The notes below the pieces were generated by a model. That model had not been told where the DNA came from, did not search any database, and saw only the letters and a list, made by a program, of their open reading frames with translations. Shown piece by piece: positions 29,974 through 36,938 of a stretch of 62,267 nt of DNA (positions are counted from its first letter, which is position 1; each line of letters opens with the position of its first letter). Location: the NCBI GenBank assembly GCA_027450045.1, contig DAIDKM010000006.1, forward strand, positions 1 to 62,267, written 5' to 3'. This stretch comes from Paludibacter sp. Lineage in GTDB: Bacteria > Bacteroidota > Bacteroidia > Bacteroidales > Paludibacteraceae. Both the position numbers and the translations under genes were made by a program.

Positions 29974-30840
29974 TTACGACTCTTTCTTTTTCCGATCCAA
30001 AGGCACAACGCCAGCCATTTCTCCGATAATGTTGACTAACTCGCTTCCGGTTGGAATTACAATTTTGGCATTGTTTTCTAACGAGGCTTGCAGTGTATCC
30101 AATTTTTTCAGCAATTGCGCATTGCCGATAAAATATTTGTCGGCGGCTTCATTCACCAAGCGAATAGCTTCGGCTTCACCTTCGGCATGTAAGATTTGTG
30201 ATTGCTTATACCCTTCGGCTTCTTTAATCTTAGCGCGTTTCTCTCCGTCGGCCACTGTTTCGCGAGCAGAAGCAAAGTCAATGGCGGCAATCTTTTCGTT
30301 TTCGGCTTTCACCACCTTGTTCATGGTTTCCTGCACATCACGTGGAGGATCAATTTCTTTCAGTTCGGTACGAACAATTTCAATGCCCCACGTTTGGGTT
30401 TCGAAAAGCAACGTGCGATGGAGTTCAGCATTGATTTTTCCACGTTCGCTATTGGCAGATTTTAAAGTTAAGGTACCAATAATGTTACGAAGGGTAGTGC
30501 GGGCAAGGTTTACAATTTGCCATCTGTAGTTATTCACATTATAGATTGACCCCTTCACACTTTCTTCGTCTTCCTTTACCTTAAAATAGACTTGAGCATC
30601 CACACTTGCATTCAAGTTATCATTGGTTATAATCTCTTGCGGATCAGCATTGACCATTTGTTCAGTAATATTCACGGGATACATACGTTCAATAATCGGA
30701 ACAATCCAGTGAAACCCCGGGTTCGCAAAACGATGATACTTACCCAACCGCTCTATTAGCCCACGATGTGTAGGACGAATAATACGGACTCCCCAGAAAA
30801 ACACAATCACGACGACTACAATTAAATACAGATAATTCAT
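29974..30840 (-). CDS. SPFH/band-7 (stomatin-like, QmcA-type) membrane protein
   Basis: 288 residues: an N-terminal membrane helix (YLYLIVVVVIVFFWGV), then the SPFH domain (RPTHRGLIERLGKYHRFANP; GFHWIVPIIERMYPVNITEQ; RTTLRNIIGTLTL), then a long Ala/Glu-rich coiled coil (about 180–250). Such proteins form large ring-shaped membrane scaffolds, often beside an NfeD partner or a protease. No nfeD gene is present here. A very short C-terminal charged tail (DRKKKES) follows. Confidence 0.9.
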   Translation of the reverse strand: MNYLYLIVVVVIVFFWGVRIIRPTHRGLIERLGKYHRFANPGFHWIVPIIERMYPVNITEQMVNADPQEIITNDNLNASVDAQVYFKVKEDEESVKGSIYNVNNYRWQIVNLARTTLRNIIGTLTLKSANSERGKINAELHRTLLFETQTWGIEIVRTELKEIDPPRDVQETMNKVVKAENEKIAAIDFASARETVADGEKRAKIKEAEGYKQSQILHAEGEAEAIRLVNEAADKYFIGNAQLLKKLDTLQASLENNAKIVIPTGSELVNIIGEMAGVVPLDRKKKES

Positions 30841-31390
30841 AATGATTCCCTTTCATTTTTATGTTAAATGCATGGCATGCACCTAACTTGGTGTGACAAT
30901 GAATATGATTAATAATCAGGGTGAGGCAGCATATCCTCACGTACTTTAGACAAGCAAACAACGCACCCTAACTGGCTGCATCCATTGCCCGAGGATCAAG
31001 TCACATCCTTTCTTCAACATAAACAGCTAAACGTAAAAGAGTAGGTTGTTGAAAAAGGATTTTGTACAAAGTAACAAGATAATTTTGAGATTCCAATAAT
31101 TTTAATGGTGATTTTGCTTATTTATTTATCCCATGTACCCATTCATCATTGCAGTAACCAGATGCCGTCAAATCATTGTAAATGTGCATAATAACAAAAC
31201 AAGACACAGATTAGTCAAATTTTTTATCACAAAAGCTGACAAAAACTCTACATGAACTTAGCAAAACAATTAATATGCAGACAGACGACGCTCTTCTTTA
31301 TATCAGAATATATCGAAATGAGTTAACTTTGTGCCATCAAGGGAAATTGACCAAATAGAAAACAAAGGCAATCATGAGGATTGACTGCGA
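30841..31390. other. Divergent intergenic region, 550 bp
   Basis: Between the SPFH gene and the SDR gene. Apart from the TAACTTTG element at 31324–31331 nothing definite is seen; a 73-codon minus-strand frame overlapping the SPFH start is a shadow. Confidence 0.6.
31324..31331 (+). promoter_or_regulatory. Promoter -7 element for the SDR/5-alpha-reductase pair
   Basis: TAACTTTG, a match to TAnnTTTG, 60 nt before the start at 31391. No well-spaced TTTG box upstream. Confidence 0.45.
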
Positions 31391-32401
31391 ATGATTGGAA
31401 ACAGGGCTTCATTGCAACATATTGCCGTTACAGGCGCAAATGGACATTTGGGAAACGTTATTTGCCGCACGCTTCTGGGACAGGGTTTTTCTGTTTCAGC
31501 GTTCTGTCATTCAGACAACAAAGCATTGAAAGGATTGGCTATGAAACGTGTTCAGGGGAATGTTCTCAATCAAAATGATCTTGAAACGTTATTACGCGAT
31601 TGCGATGCAGTGATCCATTGTGCCGCACTGATCAGTTTAAACGGCGATCCAACGGGTATCGTTTACAAGACAAACACCGAAGGCGCCAGAAACGTGGCGG
31701 AAGTTGCAAAACGACTTGGGCTGAAAAAGATGATTCATATCAGCAGCGTTCATGCGGTTGTTGAGAAACCTTTTGATGAAAAATTCGATGAAACACGGCA
31801 ATATAAAACGGAAAGTTCTCACATATACGATTATTCAAAAGCATTGGGAGAGCAAATGGTTTTTGAAACACTAAAAGATAGCAATACGCAACTTGTCGTG
31901 ATTCGTCCCAGCTCCATTCTCGGCCCTTTTGATTTCAAGCCATCTGAAATAGGAAAAGCAATGCTCATTTTATACCGGGGGAAACTGCCTTTTATTAGTG
32001 CAGGAGGATATGATTTTGTCGATGTACGTGATGTAGCGACATCAATTGTTGTAGCTTTGGAAAAAGGGAGAAACGGCGAAATTTACCATTTGACAGGGCA
32101 TTACTGCACCTTGAAAGAGTTTGTACACATCGTGAAGAAAATAACAAGAAAAAAAACACCTACTGTCGTTTTGCCTTTTTGGTTACTGAAAATCATGATA
32201 CCGTTGCTTCGCATTCAAAGTAACTTTATGAGGATGACACCCATCTTCACTCACGCAATGTTGGATACCCTTCGCAATGGGCATCCCAATATGAGCAGCG
32301 ATAAAGCTCAAAAAGAATTAGCCTACCAATGTCGTCCATTGGAAGAAAGTATTGCCGATTTTTACGCCTGGCAAAAAAGCTCAAAAGGAGATAACTCTTA
32401 A
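31391..32401 (+). CDS. NAD(P)-dependent epimerase/3-beta-HSD-like extended SDR
   Basis: 336 residues, extended short-chain dehydrogenase. Cofactor motif TGANGHLG at the start, then DAVIHCAALIS, the Ser in HISSVHAV, the catalytic YxxxK in YDYSKALGEQ, and RPSSILGPFD. The overall pattern fits the 3-beta-hydroxysteroid dehydrogenase/dihydroflavonol reductase branch rather than sugar-nucleotide epimerases, but sequence alone does not fix the substrate. It lies 11 nt ahead of a steroid-5-alpha-reductase-family gene, so the two probably act on the same lipid or steroid substrate. Confidence 0.8.
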   Translation: MIGNRASLQHIAVTGANGHLGNVICRTLLGQGFSVSAFCHSDNKALKGLAMKRVQGNVLNQNDLETLLRDCDAVIHCAALISLNGDPTGIVYKTNTEGARNVAEVAKRLGLKKMIHISSVHAVVEKPFDEKFDETRQYKTESSHIYDYSKALGEQMVFETLKDSNTQLVVIRPSSILGPFDFKPSEIGKAMLILYRGKLPFISAGGYDFVDVRDVATSIVVALEKGRNGEIYHLTGHYCTLKEFVHIVKKITRKKTPTVVLPFWLLKIMIPLLRIQSNFMRMTPIFTHAMLDTLRNGHPNMSSDKAQKELAYQCRPLEESIADFYAWQKSSKGDNS

Positions 32402-32412
32402 AACAAAATCAC

Positions 32413-33177
32413 ATGTCTCTGCAAATGCTTCTTTTCATAGCCTATATCTGGCTCGCCATTGCCATCGTGGTTCACATCACCATGTTCTATATCACTGCGC
32501 CATTTGGCAGGCATACATCCGGAAAATGGGGATTGATGGTCAACAACAAGGTTGGATGGGTTGTCATGGAATGTCCCTCTCTTTTGCTGATGCTTTATTT
32601 TCTTTTCTGGGGAGAAAGCTCGTTTCAATCCAATGTTTGGATTTTGTTTGTCTTGTGGATTACACATTATGTCAATCGATCGTTGATCTATCCTGCACGA
32701 ATCAAATCCACCCCCAAGAAAATGCCATTATTCATTGTGCTGAGCGCCATTTTTTTCAATCTGGTAAATGCGGGATTAAATGGGTATTACCTCAGCGTCT
32801 TTGCTTCTGTAAAAGATTACGATGCAAGTTGGTTTCACACGCCTCATTTTATTATCGGGATAACTTTGTTTATTGCAGGAATGGCAATAAACTGGAAATC
32901 AGACAACATGCTGATACATTTGCGAAAACAGGGTGAAACAGGGTATAAAATACCGCAAGGATTCTTATTCGACTTTATTTCATCTCCAAACCTGTTTGGA
33001 GAAATCGTAGAATGGACTGGATTTGCCATTATGGCATGGAACTTACCTGCTTTCACATTTATGGTTTGGACATTTGCCAACCTTGTGCCCAGAGCGAAAA
33101 ATCACCACGATTGGTATCTTAACCAGTTTTCCAACTATCCCAAAAACAGAAAGATTGTTTTCCCCTTTATTTTTTGA
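32413..33177 (+). CDS. 3-oxo-5-alpha-steroid 4-dehydrogenase (SRD5A)-family membrane enzyme
   Basis: 254 residues with about six to seven membrane helices. The C-terminal half has the family signature: GYKIPQGFLFDFISSPNLFG, EIVEWTGFAIMAW, and the closing NHHDWYLNQFSNYPKNRKIV, as in eukaryotic steroid 5-alpha-reductases (pattern YxIPxGxxFxxVxxPxYxxEIxEWxG; final RAxxxHxWYxxxFxxYPxxRKxxIPF). These enzymes reduce the C4–C5 double bond of 3-oxo-steroids using NADPH. Related genes occur in gut Bacteroidales. Pairing with the SDR suggests steroid or sterol-like lipid conversion. Confidence 0.85.
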   Translation: MSLQMLLFIAYIWLAIAIVVHITMFYITAPFGRHTSGKWGLMVNNKVGWVVMECPSLLLMLYFLFWGESSFQSNVWILFVLWITHYVNRSLIYPARIKSTPKKMPLFIVLSAIFFNLVNAGLNGYYLSVFASVKDYDASWFHTPHFIIGITLFIAGMAINWKSDNMLIHLRKQGETGYKIPQGFLFDFISSPNLFGEIVEWTGFAIMAWNLPAFTFMVWTFANLVPRAKNHHDWYLNQFSNYPKNRKIVFPFIF

Positions 33178-33193
33178 AAAATGATCGCATTGC

Positions 33194-33997
33194 TTATTTG
33201 TGCACAATTTTTCCATGACCACTGTGAGAAACCAGGCGAACAGTTGGTGTGCCAAGATAAATCACTGAGCCATGACCTAACGCATGAATGGCTAAATGAT
33301 CACTGGCATTCACAACTGTATCGCCATGTCCACGACTTAACAATGTAACCCGTGCTGCAAGAAATGCATCCGCATTTACATCGCCGTGTCCCGAGTTAGC
33401 TACGTTCAACGACGATCCATTCCCCGAAAGAAACAAATCACCATGCCCTTCCTGCACCAACTCAACCTGTTCCACTTCAATATTCAAACGGGAATCTCCA
33501 CTGCTAATATTGTTCATTTCCAATTTTTGACCACGAAAATGCAATGAAAAATCACCGTGATTCGTAGCATTTATTTTCATCTCCGGTGCACTAACATCAA
33601 ACATAGTATCGCCATGACACACCATTTTGAGCACAAATGCGTGTGATAAAATCAGTGGCGAATACGTGGAAACATCCCCATGAGTCGTCATGTAAATAGC
33701 TTCCAATTGACGAAAATAGATCGTAATTTTCCCCTGTGTAAATGTGGGCACGTGAATCCTCTTTTTGGAATTCACATAAAGAGCGTGGGTGGCATTATCA
33801 ACGTTGATGGAATCGATCAGATTGTCGTCCATTTCGATCACTACTTTTTCTTCATCCGACTGCACTAATGCTACATTGCAATTGGTATAAAGATGCAATT
33901 GTGTGAAAGGAAGCACATTTATGGTTTTTATCACGACGTTCCCCGAACCTTTTTCAGCTAATATACGCCGCCATTTTTTGACCGTAACTCTCATCAT
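33194..33997 (-). CDS. GIN-domain (DUF2807-like) beta-helix protein without signal peptide
   Basis: 267 residues. After a basic N-terminus (MMRVTVKKWRRILAEKGSG) the protein is a ladder of ~20-residue beta strands. Nine rungs carry a variant of HGD: THGDVS, CHGDTM, NHGDFS, SSGDSR, GHGDLF, GHGDVN, GHGDTV, GHGSVI and GHGKIV. This is the pattern of the head-GIN/DUF2807 right-handed beta-helix proteins. Most family members are exported, but no signal peptide or lipobox is present here, and an in-frame stop just upstream excludes a longer ATG start. It is convergent with the 5-alpha-reductase gene, 16 nt away. Function is unknown. Confidence 0.75.
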   Translation of the reverse strand: MMRVTVKKWRRILAEKGSGNVVIKTINVLPFTQLHLYTNCNVALVQSDEEKVVIEMDDNLIDSINVDNATHALYVNSKKRIHVPTFTQGKITIYFRQLEAIYMTTHGDVSTYSPLILSHAFVLKMVCHGDTMFDVSAPEMKINATNHGDFSLHFRGQKLEMNNISSGDSRLNIEVEQVELVQEGHGDLFLSGNGSSLNVANSGHGDVNADAFLAARVTLLSRGHGDTVVNASDHLAIHALGHGSVIYLGTPTVRLVSHSGHGKIVHK

Positions 33998-34751
33998 AAT
34001 GTTTTTAGTTTCCGGAATTTATTCGAAAATATACGTATTCACTCATGGAATCAAAGTAACTCCGCATGAAACTCTGCTGATTCTTTCATCAACTTATGTG
34101 AAGGTTATCTCGCAAGAATTACCCCCGAAAAGTTTCATCTAATTCGGGGTGACAAAGATAACAGTATTTTGATCAAAAAAAATTAACCGATAGAAGAATA
34201 AATCGATTTTATAGATGCATTTTATGTCGAACAGTGAATGTCAGGATAATTACCACCTATAACTCGCTGTCAATGTATACAGAAAGTATAATAAACCGCA
34301 ATTTAACACATCATCCTCTACAAAAAAAGCGAATGAACATGGCGTCATCATGGCTGAATGATTTATTTTAGACATTTTGGACAATCAACCATTTGTATCA
34401 ATATTTCGTTGAATGAAAACAATTAAAACTCTATAAAACAATAACTTCAGCAAAAGTGATTTTAGGCATCCATACTGCATTTTGCTATATCGACACGACA
34501 ATTCCACCACCAAAAATTATTAAAACCAACTATAAGCGAGAAAGTCGTCAAAGACATTCCAAGATATTTCCTCTATATTTGTTCCACAGAAACATTGTCA
34601 AAAACCGAAAAAAGACCATGTCCCGATGAGCACATTTCCATAGGCAGGATTTTGCCAGCATCAATCATAAAACCCGCTTGCCAAAATCCGTCATTAAAAC
34701 GTGACATTTTCTTATCCTAACTTTAATCATCAACCAAAAACATCTACACAA
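33998..34751. other. Divergent intergenic region, 754 bp
   Basis: Long AT-rich spacer between the GIN-domain gene and the NlpC/P60 gene. CAAAGATA at 34153–34160 (TATCTTTG on the minus strand) may be the -7 box of the GIN gene, and TATATTTG at 34574–34581 that of the NlpC/P60 gene. No RNA gene or conserved frame was recognised. Confidence 0.55.
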
Positions 34752-36938
34752 ATGCGTCACTATCTTTTTTTATTGCTTTGGGTAAATGTGATGGCGATTT
34801 CGGCTCATACATTTCAGCAGAATATTGAGTTGCGCGATTCACTTGTCCAGTATGCCAAAACATTGCTAAACACGCCTTACCGATCGGGTTCCAAAGGACC
34901 GAATGGCTTTGATTGCTCGGGGTTTACTCATTATGTTTTTCAACGATTCGGAGTGCCACTGGGAGAATCATCTCGCGATCAAGTATATGATGGCCGTGAA
35001 GTAGCAACCGATCAGCTAAAAAAAGGAGATTTAGTCTTTTTCAAAGGTAGCAATAGTAGAAGAGATCGCATCGGGCATGTGGGTATTGTTATCGGACATA
35101 ATCCTGATGGCGGCTTCAATTTTATTCATGCAGCCTACGATGGAGGCGTACGCATTGACAACAGTTTAGAAAATTATTATGCAAAAAGATACGTTACAGG
35201 ATGTTGTGTTCTTGCGCATGATAGTCTGTATCATTACCATGCCGTCAATATCCCTGAATCATACAATTCTTACGATAACACATCGGAGCCAGTACAATTT
35301 GCAGATGTGATAGACCATCGGGTCAAAAGAGGAGAATCGTTATATCTTATTGCGCGAAAATATCATATAAGCGAAAAGAAACTCAAAGAGTTGAATCATC
35401 TCACATCCAACGATATAAAGCCAGGTCAAAAACTCATTCTCGATGAACCTAAAACCCGGCACAACATTGCTTCAAACGAAAACACACCGGAACAGGAAAC
35501 CAGATCAATTGAAACTACCCACCGCGTTAAACGTGGAGAATCGCTTTATACCATCGCTCGAAAATATCATGTAAGTGAGAAAAAACTCAAAGGATTGAAT
35601 CATCTTTCTTCGAACGACATACAACCAGGTGAAAAACTTATTGTCAAGATTTCTGAAAAGCATTACACAGTAGCGCCAAGGCAAAAAGACGAAACAACTA
35701 ATGCGGATAATCAGGATTTCACTTCAAAAGAGATGATTCATGTTGTCAAATCGCGTGAGACATTATTATCAATAGCTAAGAAATATCACATCACAACCCG
35801 TAAACTCAAAGAATGGAATCACTTGTCCACAAATCATTTGAGAAAAGGTACAAAACTCATCATCAAACTTGCTGAAAAGCAATCCAACAATAATTTCTCT
35901 ACAGCTGCGACCAAAAATAACGAACAGGAACAGGTTGCAAAGAAGACTACGTCAGTGACAAGAACAGTGACAACAAGACAAACCCATCGCATTCGTTCGG
36001 GAGAATCTCTCTATACCATTGCCAGAAAATATCATACCAATGTTGCTGCACTGAAACGCCTGAATCATTTAACTTCGACTAATTTAAAACCAGGAAAAAT
36101 CATTACAGTCAGCGTGAGAAAAAAGGAAATCACATCTGAAGTAAAGGAAGCCTCACCTACAACTAACGTCAATGAACTTCAAACAGAACCGAAAACTGTT
36201 GCTGCTGAAAATATCCCAATACAACCAAATGCTAAACAAGAAGAACCCGACAATGCAACATACTCGACGCTAAAACTGAAAAATGCCAAAGAAGTTGTGC
36301 CAAAAAACGTTCAACTTGACACATTGTATTCCTCATACCTCACAACCGAGAAACACATCGTACAACCAGGTGAAACATTTGCATCAATAGCCTACAAATA
36401 CAATGTGACAGAACAAGATATTAAAGCATGGAATGGCATTCCCCGCAGACAAAAGACGATAGAGCCTGGTAAGGGACTTTTACTACAAGTAACAAAAAAA
36501 GCATTTGTAGTCGTTTCCAAACCCATTCGCGAAAAGGTAACTGAAACCAAAAAAACAACTCAATCTATTCAAAATAAAGAAAATAAAACCGACTCAAATA
36601 CTAATCAAAAACATATTGTAAAAAAGGGAGAATCTCTCTATTCAATTGCAAATCAACATCATCTTACGGTGGAACAATTAAAATCGTACAACCAACTTGG
36701 AGCCAAAGAAAAACTCAAAGAAAATCAGGTGCTTCAATTAACGCCAAACTCAGCGGAAATTGCAAAAAAAGACACAACCACAACGCAAGAATATATTGTA
36801 AAACCGGGTGATACATTATCTTCGGTTGCCAAAGCATATCATGTTACAGTAGAAGAACTAAAACAAATTAATCAACTGCTAAAAGACGATTTAAACATTG
36901 GGCAACGGCTTACCATTCCGGTTTATCCTGCTAAATGA
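34752..36938 (+). CDS. Secreted NlpC/P60 endopeptidase with seven LysM repeats
   Basis: About 728 residues from the ATG at 34752. The frame is open to 34701, but the later start gives a proper signal peptide (MRHYLFLLLWVNVMAISAH). The NlpC/P60 (C40) domain comes first, about 25–165. Its catalytic Cys is in NGFDCSGFTHYVF, its His in RIGHVGIVIGH, and its third polar residue in NFIHAAYDGG. Seven LysM modules follow, each starting like HRVKRGESLYxIARKYHxS, separated by Thr/Lys/Glu-rich linkers. It should cut peptide stems of peptidoglycan while the LysM tail binds glycan. Placing the enzyme N-terminal to many LysM repeats is less common than the reverse. Its stop overlaps the truA start. Confidence 0.9.
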   Translation: MRHYLFLLLWVNVMAISAHTFQQNIELRDSLVQYAKTLLNTPYRSGSKGPNGFDCSGFTHYVFQRFGVPLGESSRDQVYDGREVATDQLKKGDLVFFKGSNSRRDRIGHVGIVIGHNPDGGFNFIHAAYDGGVRIDNSLENYYAKRYVTGCCVLAHDSLYHYHAVNIPESYNSYDNTSEPVQFADVIDHRVKRGESLYLIARKYHISEKKLKELNHLTSNDIKPGQKLILDEPKTRHNIASNENTPEQETRSIETTHRVKRGESLYTIARKYHVSEKKLKGLNHLSSNDIQPGEKLIVKISEKHYTVAPRQKDETTNADNQDFTSKEMIHVVKSRETLLSIAKKYHITTRKLKEWNHLSTNHLRKGTKLIIKLAEKQSNNNFSTAATKNNEQEQVAKKTTSVTRTVTTRQTHRIRSGESLYTIARKYHTNVAALKRLNHLTSTNLKPGKIITVSVRKKEITSEVKEASPTTNVNELQTEPKTVAAENIPIQPNAKQEEPDNATYSTLKLKNAKEVVPKNVQLDTLYSSYLTTEKHIVQPGETFASIAYKYNVTEQDIKAWNGIPRRQKTIEPGKGLLLQVTKKAFVVVSKPIREKVTETKKTTQSIQNKENKTDSNTNQKHIVKKGESLYSIANQHHLTVEQLKSYNQLGAKEKLKENQVLQLTPNSAEIAKKDTTTTQEYIVKPGDTLSSVAKAYHVTVEELKQINQLLKDDLNIGQRLTIPVYPAK

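Follow-up and report, generated by a model that had tools for sequence, protein, structure and literature searches.

Introduction

Sato et al. 2021 reportedly described a 5AR-5BR-3-beta-HSDH gene cluster in gut Bacteroidales, and gut 5AR clusters with 3-beta-HSDH are also presented in the available text of a second report (PMC10382948). The catalytic and cofactor residue positions of SRD5A are given in the accessible part of the PbSRD5A paper (PMC7815742). Two pathways use one SDR on either side of a saturation step: in gut cholesterol conversion, the available sections of one source assign the first and last steps from sterol to stanol to a single SDR, SpiR (PMC13079761), and in dolichol synthesis, DHRSX is described, in the text available, as acting on either side of SRD5A3 (PMC11607601). 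In soil and sediment, 5-alpha-stanols are biomarkers, and the accessible portion of a further source treats them as environmental microbial products with stanones as intermediates (PMC5217961).

No paper assigning genes to the environmental 5-alpha-stanol step was found in the open-licence literature, nor was any description of the SDR-SRD5A gene pair considered here. The available text of a review lists 5-alpha-reductases of Saprospirales and Chitinophaga, citing Han et al. 2023 (PMC12789469), and environmental Bacteroidota reductases are therefore not wholly new.

Results

Layout of the Locus

The window (the whole 62,267-nucleotide stretch analyzed) was the start of a contig from a Paludibacter genome of 2.96 Mb that was 98.8% complete. 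An extended SDR gene (31391..32401, + strand, 336 aa, ATG start) was followed, after a spacer of 11 nt (32402..32412, +), by a gene for an SRD5A-family (PF02544) membrane reductase (32413..33177, +, 254 aa, ATG start). Both ORFs and the gap lay exactly where a preliminary description had placed them. The neighboring Band 7 gene was divergent from the pair (29974-30840, −), and the DUF2807/GIN gene just past the reductase was convergent (33194-33997, −); therefore, the SDR and the reductase formed a stand-alone two-gene unit, which may be co-translated.

The DUF2807/GIN protein cluster was also found directly downstream of the reductase in loci L065 and L070, although the reductases there were just 46-50% identical and the co-placement may be due to chance. 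At 34701-36938 (+), the window encoded an NlpC/P60 protein whose seven LysM stretches make it unusually rich in repeats for a wall enzyme. One match to the Bacteroidota -7 box (TAnnTTTG) occurred at 31324-31331; as the window held 80 such matches against 72 expected, the match was no evidence for a promoter.

A larger operon was tested by clustering neighbor proteins over the reductase loci. The reductase cluster covered 79 loci, the SDR cluster 33, and the Oxidored_FMN cluster, which belonged to gut-type homologues, 15; no other cluster exceeded 8 loci, and the clustering gave no sign of a larger operon around the pair. Nothing else was conserved beside it in this clustering, with no transporter, isomerase or catabolic gene among the conserved neighbors. 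Genes flanking the reductase at loci that lacked the SDR showed no apparent mutual relation. In two of these (L057 and L061, Saprospiraceae), the protein downstream of the reductase looked by eye like a flavin-containing monooxygenase.

The Reductase

Residues 102-254 of the reductase matched PF02544 over positions 1-150 of 150 (173.7 bits against a cut-off of 22.6, E 3e-51), and a genome search returned this protein as the single PF02544 match in the whole Paludibacter genome. With phmmer, the reductase retrieved PbSRD5A at 1.3e-55 and human SRD5A2 at 1e-41, and a 49-row reductase profile gave 294 bits to PbSRD5A, 223 to human SRD5A2 and 90 to the enoyl-CoA reductase art-1. The AlphaFold2 model (pLDDT 94.2) contained seven long predicted helices, corresponding to the SRD5A seven-helix fold, with a TM score of 0.93 to PbSRD5A (7c83; Z 34.1, rmsd 1.6, 251 residues) and 0.84 to human SRD5A2 (7bw1; Z 30.2, rmsd 2.1, 242 residues). 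The next fold after the SRD5As was delta14-sterol reductase (Z 12.7), and ICMT methyltransferases reached Z 10-12 versus 30-34. The methyltransferase or enoyl-reductase grouping that the preliminary description had set against its own assignment was absent, and either identity was ruled out by score and fold. Judged by its sequence, active site and predicted fold, the protein is a true member of the SRD5A family, in agreement with the original family call. It is closely related to the human enzyme that forms dihydrotestosterone.

Residues were mapped through an alignment with PbSRD5A numbering, anchored on the N-x3-D-x6-R stretch. The catalytic Glu and Tyr (E57 and Y91 of SRD5A2) were present as E53 and Y86; among Bacteroidota rows with a letter at these positions, the Glu occurred in 79/79 and the Tyr in 79/80, the exception, L081, being a fragment. 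Nearly all NADPH contacts of PbSRD5A were retained (N159, D163, R170, Y177, N192, E196, T219, N222, R226 and H230, and also R34 and W50), while Y32 was changed to F, Y193 to L, F94 to Y and M98 to I.

The Gln of the "QEY" signature was replaced by Met (M52). The same Met occurred in 77 of the 79 related Bacteroidota rows with a letter there, Gln appearing in L058 and L060 only, and in all 20 gut-type rows, among them L079 (titled uncultured Parabacteroides). In human SRD5A2, activity was lost in Q56A and Q56L, according to the part of the source available (PMC7815742), and disruption of the P. merdae 5AR is described in the accessible text of PMC10382948 as stopping alloLCA formation. Provided that the P. 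merdae 5AR is of the gut type with Met, this residue would be compatible with steroid reduction.

The SDR

In Pfam, the SDR scored 112.7 bits against Epimerase and 78.2 bits against 3Beta_HSD (PF01073, cut-off 22), and 3-beta-HSD was therefore rejected as its best-matching family. NCBIfam scores fell under their cut-offs for both HpnA (TIGR03466, 186.9 of 367.65 bits) and the SdmB sterol demethylase protein (NF052578, 175.4 of 600 bits), and OleD-type 2-alkyl-3-oxoalkanoate reductases gave 79.7 bits against a cut-off of 580. With its score under the cut-off and no PF13243 hopanoid cyclase in the Paludibacter genome, HpnA proper was rejected as well. The motifs TGxxGxxG (TGxxGH) and S118/S119-Y146-K150 were present, and T14, G15, G18, S118, Y146 and K150 were invariant across 31 aligned SDR orthologues.

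The best full-length solved relative was Gox2253 (3wj7), at 203 bits with the SDR profile and 29% identity, against 81 bits for sterol-4-alpha-carboxylate 3-dehydrogenase 6jkg, which is presumably NSDHL. Gox2253 was also ranked first by Foldseek for the SDR model (pLDDT 92.5, TM 0.83). In a second structural comparison (VIA-align), it was tied at the top with cinnamoyl-CoA reductases, and no further steroid enzymes were among the matches listed, whose top rows were tied. Thus, from the earlier label of a 3-beta-HSD/DFR-type SDR, the extended SDR part stood, while the 3-beta-HSD part did not; the protein is closer to HpnA/Gox2253-type enzymes than to 3-beta-HSD, and "3-beta-HSD-like" fits in a wide sense only.

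Conservation of the Pair

Scanning 84,980 species genomes for reductase relatives yielded 67 loci, 57 of which were testable, with 950 nt or more of upstream sequence and a reductase N terminus that was nearly complete. An orthologous SDR was immediately upstream of the reductase in 30 of these 57, so that the pairing seen in the preliminary description was recurrent and not a chance neighborhood. The proportion varied with reductase identity, from 25/34 at 60% or above to 4/10 at 50-60%, 1/7 at 44-50% and 0/6 at 30-44%. The SDR was also present at four loci outside the testable set, L020, L032 and L065 (contig-end cut) and L084 (late-starting match, with a spacing value that is an extrapolation artefact). 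The ORFs overlapped by 4 nt in 12 of 33 pairs, the window pair being counted among the 33; in most relatives the two genes overlapped in this way or stood a few nt apart, and the window's 11 nt was within the common range. Identity distances of SDR and reductase were correlated (r 0.91, n=31 pairs), a value reached in 0/5000 permutations and to which shared organism history contributes.

Across the phylum, the reductase was detected at E <= 1e-40 in 9/392 sampled genomes, the window genome counted, and a further 9/392 had weak matches alone (E 5e-5 to 1e-3); the family had been called rare in bacteria, which holds for Bacteroidota. With no more than five candidates scored in each genome, SDR orthologues at E <= 1e-45 occurred in 3/392: the window genome; G480, in which SDR and reductase are side by side; and G370, in which both the SDR and a C-terminal fragment of a reductase sit at contig ends. 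We also queried 26 genomes with a reductase but without an intact adjacent SDR, including those of L020, L054 and the relic-bearing G004. Only the L054 genome had an SDR orthologue elsewhere (53% identity), with SDR and reductase both at contig ends; the other 25 had SDR paralogues of 25-33% identity or none under E 1e-25. No SDR orthologue clearly away from a reductase was seen in the 392 phylum genomes or in the 26 with unpaired reductases.

The SDR was absent from 9 of the 34 close reductase relatives (at least 60% identity) and from the same-genus genome G007, and it is therefore not obligatory: the SDR goes with the reductase, but the reductase can occur without the SDR. As a conserved unit, the two genes recur in many uncultured environmental Bacteroidota.

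Phylogeny and Turnover

A maximum-likelihood reductase tree with a midpoint root was built from 79 rows gathered by similarity to the window protein, with reference rows on long branches; short rows (L054, L069, L081, L083, L084), copies (L001, L002) and fragments or other proteins (L016, L017, L019) were omitted. The window reductase was sister to that of congener G007 (96/93), in a clade of 33 rows (96/93) inside 38 rows supported at 100/99. Relatives of 60-75% identity belonged to uncultured Bacteroidota of several orders, with the titles Crocinitomix, Chitinophagaceae, Saprospiraceae, Flavobacteriales and uncultured Bacteroidetes; a few of the 67 locus titles point to a habitat, for example groundwater or bog. 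The nesting of this Bacteroidales reductase among rows from other orders suggests horizontal transfer.

Within the genus, the reductase of G007 was 69% identical and had the Band 7 gene alongside as in the window, with no SDR orthologue. Congener G004, whose Band 7, alanine dehydrogenase and DnaA proteins were 98% identical to those of the window, carried a 32-residue reductase relic between its Band 7 and LysM/NlpC genes (L088, G004:C128, 10595-10691) and no SDR; the relic at the same place indicated that the pair was lost there. No counterpart of the pair was found in five of seven congeners, with a weak match (9e-5) in G006, and an SDR orthologue was found in none of 60 relatives, the best other match having 30% identity (E 2.9e-41). 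The SDR-reductase module is dispensable within the genus.

Gut-Type Homologues

The gut-type reductases, 34-42% identical to that of the window, formed a separate clade of 20 rows (100/99). At loci L074, L075, L079, L080 and L082, the reductase was followed by two successive protein clusters, which in L074 were Oxidored_FMN (PF00724) and then a classical SDR (adh_short); the window-type SDR was upstream in 0/6 gut-type loci with enough upstream sequence. H230 was replaced by I, L or V in 20/20 gut-type rows and Y177 by H in 19/20, and both residues were retained in the window clade. These replacements (e.g., in L074 and L079) may mark altered cofactor binding. In L074 (8789-10843), and also in L075, a 685-aa protein without a Pfam match followed the 5AR, flavin reductase and SDR genes. 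The OYE of the Paludibacter genome was on a contig other than that of the window, and its presence was uninformative because 13/14 control genomes had one. With a separate clade and a different operon, the window pair is distinct from the gut 5AR/5BR/3-beta-HSDH cluster, having neither the adjacent NADH:flavin oxidoreductase nor the classical SDR, and the link that had been drawn from this locus to gut Bacteroidales steroid reductases proved indirect.

Discussion

Substrate Supply and Proposed Reaction

A triterpene cyclase (PF13243) was absent from the Paludibacter genome, which ruled out hopanoid or endogenous sterol synthesis in it. The same search over 33 genomes, the window genome and 32 pair genomes, several of them incomplete assemblies, found 3 with a full-length match (E < 1e-50) in frames some 750-800 aa long and 4 more with a weak one. 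Most pair carriers thus probably cannot make sterols, and any steroid substrate would come from outside the cell.

We consider it about evenly balanced whether the pair is a two-gene lipid-saturating module whose likeliest reaction would be the conversion of an exogenous sterol or steroid to a 5-alpha-stanol. The SDR would oxidize a 3-hydroxyl lipid to an enone, presumably with isomerase activity, and/or later reduce the saturated ketone. The SRD5A-family enzyme would use NADPH to reduce the enone C=C, with hydride passing to C5, a proton coming from E53 and the carbonyl held by Y86; its substrate would be flat and hydrophobic, a 3-oxo-delta4 steroid being the likeliest. Overall, an exogenous sterol (or steroid) would pass through a 3-oxo-4-ene and a 5-alpha-3-ketone to a 5-alpha-stanol. 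This reaction was ranked first, ahead of polyprenoids and other enone lipids, because of the precedents for oxidation, C=C reduction and re-reduction and the occurrence of environmental 5-alpha-stanols. The matches of the reductase to two characterized steroid 5-alpha-reductases in family, fold and active site, the conserved pairing and the correlated distances of the two proteins also speak for it. We counted against it the Met in place of the QEY Gln, the HpnA/Gox2253-like SDR, the relatives without an SDR and the lack of a conserved transporter, isomerase or catabolic neighbor. More tentatively, and on the unlikely side, the pair may be a module that moves horizontally and lets free-living Bacteroidota turn algal, plant or animal sterols into 5-alpha-stanols via 3-keto intermediates, its SDR being of the HpnA type and without relation to the 3-beta-HSDH of the gut.

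Action on another enone lipid, own or imported (e.g., a 2-alkyl-3-oxo compound or a terpenoid), with the SDR reducing or forming its ketone, is improbable but carries some weight. It would suit the similarity of the SDR to OleD-type reductases (79.7 bits) and HpnA (186.9 bits) and a neighborhood without steroid genes; however, no conserved biosynthetic partner adjoins the pair, and the best matches of the reductase are steroid enzymes.

Less probable again is polyprenoid saturation of the DHRSX/SRD5A3 kind, in which the SDR would oxidize a polyprenol to an enal, the reductase would saturate the alpha C=C and the SDR would reduce the aldehyde, yielding a dolichol-like lipid. The same SDR and SRD5A logic has been demonstrated for dolichol, as the available text of PMC11607601 describes, SDR and SRD5A are paired at the window and related loci, and the substrate would be endogenous, so that no sterol supply would be needed. 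The reductase is nevertheless rare, patchy (9/392) and subject to loss inside the genus, a pattern unlike that of a core envelope lipid, and it is close to SRD5A1/2-type enzymes in the PDB comparison, where SRD5A3 was not among the matches.

Modification of steroid hormones or bile acids in the animal gut, as by the 5AR/5BR/3-beta-HSDH cluster, is very improbable: the reductase family is the same, and Bacteroidota with the 5AR cluster convert 3-oxo-delta4-LCA in the portion of PMC10382948 available, but the gut-type homologues differ in clade, identity and downstream genes, none of the six gut-type loci with enough upstream sequence has the window-type SDR, and the close relatives come from records such as groundwater, bog and Crocinitomix MAGs.

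If conversion of sterols to 5-alpha-stanols is the true reaction, the pair would explain at the gene level how 5-alpha-stanols form in the environment, and its compact, conserved form makes that gene assignment directly testable. The pair also extends bacterial 5-alpha-reductases beyond the gut, and the two operon types, one with an extended SDR upstream and the other with the gut Oxidored_FMN and classical SDR, should not share an annotation. If the substrate is a polyprenoid, the pair would represent a bacterial parallel to dolichol synthesis.

Comparison with Known Systems

PbSRD5A and human SRD5A2 share with the window reductase PF02544, the seven-helix fold, the catalytic Glu and Tyr and the NADPH contacts. 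By structural alignment, the window reductase is 37% and 34% identical to them, respectively, and it differs in having Met for the QEY Gln and a conserved SDR partner. Gox2253/HpnA-type extended SDRs are the closest full-length match of the window SDR (model TM 0.83), but at 29% identity, with a score under the HpnA cut-off (186.9 of 367.65 bits) and in a genome without a hopanoid cyclase.

The gut 5AR cluster, like the window, combines an SRD5A-family reductase with a neighboring dehydrogenase in Bacteroidota, whereas its classical SDR and Oxidored_FMN lie downstream and the extended SDR of the window pair lies upstream; the gut clade lacks H230 and mostly Y177, and the window clade has both. 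DHRSX and SRD5A3 follow the proposed order, in which an SRD5A enzyme saturates the C=C between an oxidation and a carbonyl reduction that both fall to the SDR, but in the source's available text they are eukaryotic and act on polyprenol, unlike the bacterial window pair. The SpiR/IsmA pathway likewise relies on a single SDR at both the start and the end of the route from sterol to stanol, whereas its product is 5-beta (coprostanol), its hosts are Acutalibacteraceae and the accessible part of its description names no SRD5A-family enzyme.
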